From contig NC_087072.1 in NCBI RefSeq assembly GCF_026151205.1, positions 689,501 through 753,500 of the forward strand: a stretch of 64,000 nucleotides of DNA, in the 5' to 3' direction. The stretch's first letter is position 1; each line of letters begins with the position of its first letter. Both the position numbers and the translations under genes were made by a program. Source of the DNA: Bolinopsis microptera (taxonomy: Eukaryota; Ctenophora; Tentaculata; Lobata; Bolinopsidae). Below are positions 18,420 to 42,688 of this stretch, in pieces. The notes beneath the pieces were generated by a model. It made no database searches and was not told the DNA's origin. It saw only the letters and a program-made list of their open reading frames with translations.

Positions 18420-21400
18420 GTGATTATAGACCAAATATTCACTGGAGGAGGGGGGCTAGTAAAGCCTCTAGGCTTTTCTGTGCACTAATGTTCCATTAAT
18501 CGGACTTATCCGATGCTGTTTTCTTATGATTCATATAAAATTTCTGATAGCCTGAATTTATTTCAGGGTTTCTCGAATCCACCAGTAACTCAGAACGAAT
18601 GTGGCTCAGCTCGAGAGAGAATCAAAGCGAAGGGCCTGAGCACGCTCCAACAGAGTATACAGCTGTCTTCAGAGAAACTAGCCGCTCAGAAACATAATAA
18701 CAACACTGTTAATGATAATGGGACTAGGAAGATACAGACGATTCAGAGGGACCAATTCTGGTCCGTTAATCCCAGGTAAGTAGTCAGAACGTTTAGTCGT
18801 TATATTGTGCTGCTAAGTTAAGTCGTTATATTTGTGCGATCAAATGAGGGAGTTACCTACGTCTTAACCACCTTGTTATCAGCGTTCGGTACTTTCTCCA
18901 ACATTAGAATAATGTTAGTCTCCTGCCAGATCCAACAGACAAACTATCAAGAAGTTTTTTGGTGATCTGAGTTCGTCCAGCAAGTCACTATCCTCCCTGG
19001 TGAAGAGCAGGATTCCTTCTTTTCAGAAGAAGGAGGAGATTCTAGACCATATGGCCGAGTATCAGGTATATACTTAGTACCATTTCAAACACAAGGAAAC
19101 AATTTCAATACTTAGTACCATTTCAAACACAAGGAAACTTTTTCAATTCTTAGTACCACTCTTAAATTACTAAACTTAGTTAGTACTAGTAGAAGAAGTT
19201 ACTGTAAATTACTAAACTCAGTTACTGTAACTGATCACGTGTTGTTACTGAAACTGATCACGTGTTGTTACTGTAACTGATCACGTGTTGTTACTGTAAC
19301 TGATCACGTGTTGTTACTGTAACTGATCACGTGTTGTTACTGTAACTGATCACGTGTTGTTACTGTAACTGATCACGTGTTGTTACTGTAACTGATCACG
19401 TGTTGTTACTGTAACTGATCACGTGTTGTTACTGTAACTGATCACGTGTTGTTACTGTAACTGATCACGTGTTGTTACTGTAACTGATCACGTGTTGTTA
19501 CTGTAACTGATCACGTGTTGTACTGTAACTGATCACGTGTTGTTACTGTAACTGATCACGTGTTGTTACTGTAACTGATCACGTGTTGTTACTGTAACTG
19601 ATCACGTGTTGTTACTGTAACTGATCACGTGTTGTACTGTAACTGATCACGTGTTGTTACTGTAACTGATCACGTGTTGTTACTGTAACTGATCACGTGT
19701 TGTTACTGTAACTGATCACGTGTTGTTACTGTAACTGATCACGTGTTGTTACTGTAACTGATCACGTGTTGTTACTGTAACTGATCACGTGTTGTTACTG
19801 TAACTGATCACGTGTTGTTACTGTAACTGATCACGTGTTGTTACTGTAACTGATCACGTGTTGTTACTGTAACTGATCACGTGTTGTTACTGTAACTGAT
19901 CACGTGTTGTTACTGTAACTGATCACGTGTTGTTACTGTAACTGATCACGTGTTGTTACTGTAACTGATCACGTGTTGTTACTGTAACTGATCACGTGTT
20001 GTACTGTAACTGATCACGTGTTGTTACTGTAACTGATCACGTGTTGTTACTGTAACTGATCACGTGTTGTTACTGTAACTGATCACGTGTTGTTACTGTA
20101 ACTGATCACGTGTTGTTACTGTAACTGATCACGTGTTGTTACTGTAACTGATCACGTGTTGTTACTGTAACTGATCACGTGTTGTTACTGTAACTGATCA
20201 CGTGTTGTTACTGTAACTGATCACGTGTTGTTACTGTAACTGATCACGTGTTGTTACTGTAACTGATCACGTGTTGTTACTGTAACTGATCACGTGTTGT
20301 TACTGTAACTGATCACGTGTTGTTACTGTAACTGATCACGTGTTGTTACTGTAACTGATCACGTGTTGTTACTGTAACTGATCACGTGTTGTTACTGTAA
20401 CTGATCACGTGTTGTTACTGTAACTGATCACGTGTTGTTACTGTAACTGATCACGTGTTGTTACTGTAACTGATCACGTGTTGTTACTGTAACTGATCAC
20501 GTGTTGTTACTGTAACTGATCACGTGTTGTTACTGTAACTGATCACGTGTTGTTACTGTAACTGATCATGTGTTGTTACTGTAACTGATCACGTGTTGTT
20601 ACTGTAACTGATCACGTGTTGTTACTGTAACTGATCACGTGTTGTTACTGTAACTGATCACGTGTTGTTACTGTAACTGATCACGTGTTGTTACTGTAAC
20701 TGATCACGTGTTGTTACTGTAACTGATCACGTGTTGTTACTGTAACTGATCACGTGTTGTTACTGTAACTGATCACGTGTTGTTACTGTAACTGATCACG
20801 TGTTGTTACTGTAACTGATCACGTGTTGTTACTGTAACTGATCACGTGTTGTTACCCCGACTACCCCAGGTCCCTGTAATGAGAGCTATATGGTTCATGA
20901 AGATAACAGCAGTGTACGTCAGTAGTATCAGCAAGAAGAGGAACACCTGTGTGGCTCTGGAGTGGACTAAGTGTATTTCGGAGTACCTGAAAGACAACCT
21001 GGCCAAGTTCGCAGAGCACAATGTGAGAGATATTGCATGATTAGTGATCTGCATTCAGTTCTGATATCTTATTGTATGATTGTTCCAATGAATGGTTGGC
21101 AGAACCTCATCCACAGGGGGGGGTGCCTGCCTCATCCCACTATTCAGTATTGCAGCAGACGAGAATGCTCGATAGCCAACTCTTAACAAAACTACACTTA
21201 AACATATAACAACCTAAACACTATTTAATGTAATTAATCCTTTTCTTAGGAAAACACGAAGGGGTTATTGAAACATGTTTTATCATAACTGTGTACTTAA
21301 CTCTCATTAGTACATGATATCATGATGTCTGATCAGACGTTTTGACAATATGTGTCTCTCAGGTAGAATACGGTAAGATCAGCACAGTGAACACAGGTAA

Positions 21401-42688: not shown

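Follow-up and report, generated by a model that had tools for sequence, protein, structure and literature searches.

Why do so many tandem arrays of this ctenophore MED12 gene lie at the edges of its exons, and could such arrays be a route by which introns grow? The sequence-only reading of the window, by which we mean the whole 64,000-nucleotide stretch of DNA analysed, had proposed that arrays in the gene are anchored on splice junctions more often than random placement would allow. We rebuilt the exons from the sequence, with human MED12 as a guide. The resulting model, at 18291..42688 on the + strand, has 19 exons and 18 introns with consistent phases and a single frame of 969 codons, and the protein translated from the joined exons matches the PDB entry for human MED12 (8tq2_C, E=2e-101). 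The gene extends past exon 19, the model covering exons 1-19, and position 34225 is an alternative end for exon 16. The exons are the following.

18291-18419, + strand, MED12 exon 1
18567-18775, + strand, exon 2
18930-19065, + strand, exon 3
20870-21022, + strand, exon 4
21363-21476, + strand, exon 5
21904-22005, + strand, exon 6
22238-22364, + strand, exon 7
24104-24240, + strand, exon 8
24578-24739, + strand, exon 9
25384-25540, + strand, exon 10
27437-27538, + strand, exon 11
30529-30717, + strand, exon 12
30826-31070, + strand, exon 13
32117-32323, + strand, exon 14
32789-32934, + strand, exon 15
34061-34221, + strand, exon 16
37922-38034, + strand, exon 17
38271-38411, + strand, exon 18
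42510-42688, + strand, exon 19

Coding exon 9 itself holds a 12-bp unit, SGAVSGAVLGAVSGAV, repeated four times in frame (window 24602-24649). At or near the splice junctions of the model, the arrays listed below were found.

19070..19158, + strand, 38-bp x2.3 array in intron 3, called by TRF, starting 4 nt past the first intron base
19221..20855, + strand, 23-bp x71 array of the unit GTTACTGTAACTGATCACGTGTT, ending 14 nt ahead of exon 4
21477..21804, + strand, 31-bp x10.6 array, beginning exactly at +1 of intron 5
22180..22254, + strand, 20-21 bp x3.5 array, crossing the exon 7 acceptor and including 17 nt of the exon
23966..24075, + strand, three degenerate copies of a unit with CTTGTGTTT(CAG), ahead of exon 8, delimited by eye, limits approximate
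24253..24425, + strand, 10-bp x18 array of the unit CCACTAGTAA in intron 8, starting 12 nt in
24761..24825, + strand, 31-bp x2.1 array in intron 9, starting 21 nt in
25470..26684, + strand, exon 10 donor array, its unit made of the last 64 nt of exon 10, the donor and TAGTAACCA filler
27723..30574, + strand, exon 12 acceptor array, its unit made of the acceptor, the first 45 nt of exon 12 and TAGTAACC filler
33974..34028, + strand, 20-bp x2.7 array, ending 32 nt ahead of exon 16
34195..35610, + strand, exon 16 donor array, 62-bp x22.8, its unit made of the last 27 nt of exon 16, the donor and 35 nt of intron
38201..38239, + strand, 19-bp x2.1 array, ending 31 nt ahead of exon 18
42048..42476, + strand, 16-bp x26.5 array of the unit CCCCCTTTTTAAGAT, ending 33 nt ahead of exon 19

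The three exon-containing arrays that had been described were recovered, at the donors of exons 10 and 16 and at the acceptor of exon 12. Including the exon itself, the last 64 nt of exon 10 occur 10 times (identity 91-100%) and the first 45 nt of exon 12 eight times (96-100%); the last 27 nt of exon 16 occur 23 times, all identical. In the exon 10 array, 13 copied donors score at or above the 5th percentile of real donors. The exon 12 array (27723-28371, continuing to 30574) is broken by a reverse-transcriptase ORF at 28347-30197 on the + strand (PF00078, E=2e-25), which lies between copies of the array unit. With the array at exon 7, four of the 24 intronic arrays of MED12 span a junction, namely the donors of exons 10 and 16 and the acceptors of exons 7 and 12. 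Filler of the type ACTAGTAACC / AGTAACCA recurs in several MED12 introns (window 23585-28371 and 30295-30509) and overlaps the exon 10 donor GTTAGTAACC. About 240 copies of the AGTAACCA filler also occur in intron 5 of the myosin locus L043 (4461-6351, minus-strand coordinates), ending 13 nt before a myosin exon.

Most of the other placements first read by eye are borne out, with some corrections. The 31-bp array does begin at the exon 5 donor, and the 23-bp array and the CCCCCTTTTTAA array do end close before exons 4 and 19; none of the copies of the 31-bp unit scores as a donor. The acceptor of exon 7 was said to be triplicated. The array crosses this acceptor as claimed, but in the two upstream copies the final triplets are TAG and AAG, and the real AG is the only copy that scores as an acceptor. 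Likewise, the three-copy CTTGTGTTTCAG unit ahead of exon 8 can be seen by eye but was not called by TRF, and the acceptor used (24103|24104) lies 28 nt further downstream.

We then placed the 24 MED12 arrays randomly inside their own introns. Five lie at most 12 bp from a donor, against 0.58 expected (p=1e-4), which rejects random placement for donors. At 35 bp or less, six arrays face a donor (1.60 expected, p=0.0018) and six an acceptor (1.59 expected, p=0.0021), these distance cut-offs having been set after MED12 had been seen. At 100 bp or less from a junction, no excess over random placement was found in MED12 for donors (p=0.23) or acceptors (p=0.075). Counted by introns, seven of the 18 carry a junction-linked array if its edge must lie within 12 bp of the donor or 20 bp of the acceptor, and 11 of 18 have an array edge within 35 bp of a junction in a manual count; the figure first proposed, eight of 18, falls between the two.

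Is the pattern a local coincidence of MED12? The genome searched holds 264,652,675 bases in 232 contigs, with about 258 of 264.65 Mb on 13 large contigs (C1-C13), and the window is on contig 1. As a gene sample, random loci (ten of 10 kb) were abandoned: de novo exon prediction there yielded too few reliable genes, and Pfam-anchored myosin and dynein genes were therefore used. A profile search of the same genome gave 73 matches for myosin heads (PF00063) and 72 for dynein DHC_N2; from these, ten myosin and three dynein regions were fetched, chosen by their Pfam matches and blind to repeats. Exon prediction relied on a home-made finder, anchored on the Pfam matches, whose training set comprised coding stretches of MED12, kinases and myosins. 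The 30 best-scoring kinase matches look largely intronless and served only for training the coding model, with 15 of their matched stretches used. We kept exons that overlapped a Pfam match and scored >10, or that scored >14. This left 71 of 107 exons in the myosin regions and 14 of 19 in the dynein regions, to which we manually added one low-scoring exon that overlaps a Pfam match (L052 2503-2669). Applied to MED12, itself a part of the training set, the finder called 18 of the 19 exons exactly, splitting exon 9 and adding two exons in the reverse-transcriptase region. The exons of loci L047, L052 and L054 join without a stop. In L042, L044 and L045, the joined exons leave the single frame; exons are therefore missing there, and the intron lengths are upper limits. 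A strict recount over 83 donors omits the hand-added exon and two stop-ended exons, and for acceptors two ATG-started exons.

The excess at donors recurs in this independently chosen set of genes, a sample rather than a genome-wide survey, which speaks against a coincidence confined to MED12. In the myosin regions, seven of 42 intronic arrays lie within 12 bp of a donor, against 1.04 expected under random placement (p=5e-5). In the strict recount of myosin and dynein genes, 11 of 83 donors have an array starting at -31..+8, against 0.90 expected, and six of these 11 donors are spanned by at least 1 nt; the linked donors are not independent, with two each in L042, L047 and L052. Among HMM-supported donors, nine of 66 carry an array, against 0.71 expected. 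The peak is sharp: over the 86 exons, the density of donor-facing array edges is 10.7 per kb at 0-12 bp (12 edges, six of them entering the exon), zero at 13-25 bp and 0.86 per kb at 51-400 bp. Real donors also differ from pseudo-donors: 17 of 105 real donors have an array start at -71..+12, against eight of 207 intronic pseudo-donors and 27 of 515 pseudo-donors from random loci (Fisher's test, p about 3e-4 for either comparison). The difference persists without MED12 (12 of 86 real against 35 of 722 pseudo-donors, p=0.002) and when the 11 of 83 donors of the strict recount are set against the same pseudo-donors (p=0.005).

Several of these arrays have the anatomy seen in MED12. At the exon 3 donor of L047, a 40-bp unit repeated 22 times consists of 31 nt of exon and 9 nt of intron, and a 26-bp unit is present twice at the next donor. 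Other arrays across donors are a 31-bp x4.1 array in L051 and a 49-bp x2.1 array in L054, each containing the exon end and the donor. Thus, outside MED12, junction-spanning units occur at exons 3 and 4 of L047, exon 1 of L051 and exon 4 of L054; the arrays at L043 exon 7 and L044 exon 4 overlap the exon by 1 nt only. In seven of the eight donor arrays examined, copied donors score at or above the 5th percentile of real donors, the exception being the array at MED12 exon 5, and 21 copied donors of the L047 exon 3 array are still strong. In five of the seven arrays that have copied donors, an in-frame stop comes before the next unit's donor; in the two L047 arrays it does not.

Acceptors show a weaker association than donors. 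None of the 86 acceptors of the myosin and dynein set is spanned by an array. An array lies within 20 bp of eight of 83 acceptors in the strict recount (1.83 expected, p=6e-4; 4.28 expected under full exon-edge tolerance, p=0.07), and of four of 59 HMM-supported acceptors (1.31 expected, p=0.044), with no excess over tolerance in the latter (p=0.36). In MED12, copied acceptors score as acceptors at exon 12 and not at exon 7. Slippage at polypyrimidine tracts, one of the causes first suggested, is unsupported, because slippage would favour acceptors, yet it is the donors that show a sharp peak. By eye, some arrays with an end a little upstream of an acceptor (L042 5636-5743, L045 4149-4185, L050 144-406 and L052 807-859, gene-strand coordinates) have words resembling ACTAAC/ACTAAT in their units; these words are candidate copies of branch points.

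We give a probability of roughly 0.6 to the reading that the arrays are minisatellites anchored at splice junctions, like the 'mirages' of lancelets, and that junction duplications are tolerated, expand and lengthen introns. The first event would be a short tandem duplication that takes in a splice site or lies directly beside one, in most cases the 5' one. Such a duplication would be nearly neutral because the outermost copy of the splice site would still work and the reading frame would stay intact. The duplicate would then seed a minisatellite, and its expansion and homogenisation on the intron side would yield a longer intron, while selection would hold the exon edge and the outermost splice site in place. 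Splicing would proceed normally throughout, and expansion would follow the junction-containing duplication.

Tolerance could also be the whole story. If duplications arose uniformly and those that cross a junction survived as well as intronic ones, the trimming of arrays against conserved exon sequence would pile up their starts at the splice site. Selection that tolerates repeats at exon edges had been put forward at the outset, and it does account for part of the donor excess: with a mean unit of 33 bp, full exon-edge tolerance raises the expectation in the strict recount from 0.90 to 2.84 donors, and spanning arrays are about as frequent as a uniform rate predicts if exon edges are tolerant. 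Furthermore, some starts at +5..+9 resemble, by eye, a degenerate copy with the 5' splice site inside it (L042 exon 11, L048 exon 2). But not all of the excess is absorbed, with 11 donors against 2.84 (p=1.9e-4), or nine against 2.22 for HMM-supported donors (p=5e-4); the number of arrays at donors is about three to four times what tolerance by itself would give. Tolerance would also act equally on donors and acceptors, yet no acceptor is spanned outside MED12. We regard tolerance on its own as unlikely.

No more probable is the idea that junctions are mutational hot spots for small duplications, through transcription-linked breaks, R-loops (also named in the sequence-only reading) or replication slippage. 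The excess over tolerance and its confinement to the first dozen bases are what this idea would predict. However, six seams viewed by eye show little or no flanking microhomology, save TTATCT at the exon 16 seam, and a precision of a dozen bases would be hard for R-loops to achieve. As for the source of the excess beyond tolerance, our guess would be a mutational bias at donors first and a helpful redundancy second. The reading in which copied splice sites are kept because extra 5' sites recruit U1 and secure splicing or guard long introns from premature polyadenylation, seems improbable to us: strong donors do persist at MED12 exon 10 and L047 exon 3, but recent expansion equally predicts high identity, and the arrays at MED12 exons 5 and 7 have no usable copies. 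An artefact or coincidence, with the exon finder or TRF pulling boundaries to array edges in a repeat-rich genome (79 merged arrays in 100 kb of random loci, or 0.79 arrays per kb) and a coding model lacking MED12 finding only 11 of the 19 MED12 exons exactly, is just as improbable, given that 82 of 86 myosin and dynein exons are unchanged with repeat masking off (of the four that change, only L054 exon 4 has a donor near an array, and that donor is unchanged), that Pfam match ends agree with nine of 12 array-linked donors, and that 17 of 105 real donors stand against 35 of 722 pseudo-donors.

A search of the whole genome for paired 5' splice-site motifs agrees with the donor excess, as a hint only, with controls that scatter widely. 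Pairs of AGGTRAGT spaced 14-44 bp number 2841, against 274, 319, 1304, 1501 and 1552 for five rearranged motifs, controls that range over a factor of six and in which large arrays are counted many times; an initial ten-fold enrichment (2841 against 274) was reduced once the four higher controls were in. The single motif is 1.23 times commoner than its backwards form (19232 against 15615). Among the matches listed, distinct motif arrays counted by eye number seven in 3.1 Mb, against 10, 23 and 22 in 39.8, 38.6 and 51.6 Mb for three controls, densities that assume lists ordered by position, as seems to be so; two of the seven share a 32-bp spacing and may represent one family. Long arrays with AGGTAAGT or AGGTGAGT in each unit and spacings of 32, 34 and about 54 bp are found at C1:36576-37703, C1:401054-401945 and C1:428574-430920. 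We also considered that all repeat units of the genome might be enriched in donors, and rejected this. Repeats in general are not seeded by splice sites, because units from random and kinase loci match their shuffles (16 strong donors against 16.3 at the main cut-off).

The idea of a route of intron growth, raised from the MED12 introns, finds some weak support in intron lengths. Junction-linked arrays are present in 22 of the 91 introns between accepted exons (seven of 18 in MED12 and 15 of 73 elsewhere). These introns have a median length of 675 bp against 332 bp (p=0.024), or 354 bp once the linked array is subtracted. Linked arrays make up 8868 of 74925 intronic bp (5050 of 21489 in MED12, 3818 of 53436 without it). 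Length alone does not single out the linked introns, because the 22 introns with only non-linked arrays have an even higher median, 1014 bp. A broader claim would be that 5' splice sites seed minisatellites in this ctenophore lineage, with linked arrays in about one quarter of introns and about one tenth of intronic DNA, that intron growth from the edges continues, and that the phenomenon arose separately from lancelet mirages. We hold this claim only tentatively, at somewhat less than even odds.

How do these arrays compare with known systems? According to the passages of two reports used here (PMC3087553, PMC3902484), lancelet mirages are junction-spanning minisatellites whose unit spans the exon-intron boundary and copies the splice signals, at 5' and 3' boundaries alike, with splicing undisturbed and copy number varying between haplotypes. 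Their units measure 10-72 bp in Adh3 and 150-160 bp in globins (PMC3087553, PMC3902484), and one of the two reports suggests that mirages could be a general feature of cephalochordates and a source of introns. As far as these passages go, the arrays described here are alike in that their units hold the exon edge and the splice site, that donors (exons 10 and 16) and acceptors (exons 7 and 12) of MED12 are affected, that unit sizes overlap and that many copies retain AG/GT signals. They are unlike mirages, on the same basis, in belonging to a ctenophore rather than a cephalochordate, in their strong donor bias outside MED12 and in that many of them merely abut the junction; the excess described here was assessed in several genes, with random placement and pseudo-donors as the references. 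As to undisturbed splicing, a trait of the lancelet mirages, the observation made here is the continuous frame of the joined MED12 exons. In the literature searched, whose coverage leaves out many subscription papers, we found no report of junction-spanning minisatellites in ctenophores, and the papers found on 'mirages' both deal with lancelet genes. This is thus apparently the first case of the mirage type outside lancelets, and the passages of PMC3087553 and PMC3902484 used here make no mention of a donor bias.

Ordinary intronic minisatellites share the same kinds of units and of expansion; here, array starts cluster at donors. Introner-like elements offer another comparison, as the TAGTAACC filler recurs in MED12 introns and the AGTAACCA filler in the L043 intron, whereas the exon-edge units are gene-specific. 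Intron gain by tandem duplication of proto-splice sites reportedly occurred in potato RdRp. The same kind of gain has been described in Drosophila, in the passages of PMC2891723 used here. The likeness is that a short tandem duplication at AG|GT alters intron-exon structure. In those cases, however, new introns arise inside exons, whereas here introns that presumably exist already would grow.

Transposons are the usual answer to the questions of how introns lengthen and whether mutation treats their edges differently. Were short repeats to start regularly at splice sites, introns would have a growth point, splice sites would be redundant by default, and each edge of this kind would supply raw material for new exons and introns. 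The presence of the mirage pattern in a phylum that branches near the base of the animals suggests that it is old and overlooked, or repeatedly invented.

The window has several other features around MED12. Downstream of the last MED12 exon found, a 12.4-kb satellite (48722-61176) is built from the 28-bp unit TACCGAACTCTACTAGCAGGGAGGGGTT, a 40-bp variant of which makes up some internal stretches; the satellite could lie in a later intron of the gene. A rhodopsin-type receptor ORF on the - strand (44198-45361; PF00001, E=4e-10) follows exon 19 and is possibly nested in a later MED12 intron as well. Two further reverse-transcriptase ORFs are at 4417-6423 and 9623-11308. On the + strand, an exon of a Ras-family GTPase (8652-9026; PF00071, E=7e-36), which we take to resemble Rac or Cdc42, and an ORF with a Yip1 domain (16731-17750; PF04893, E=7e-8) were also identified.
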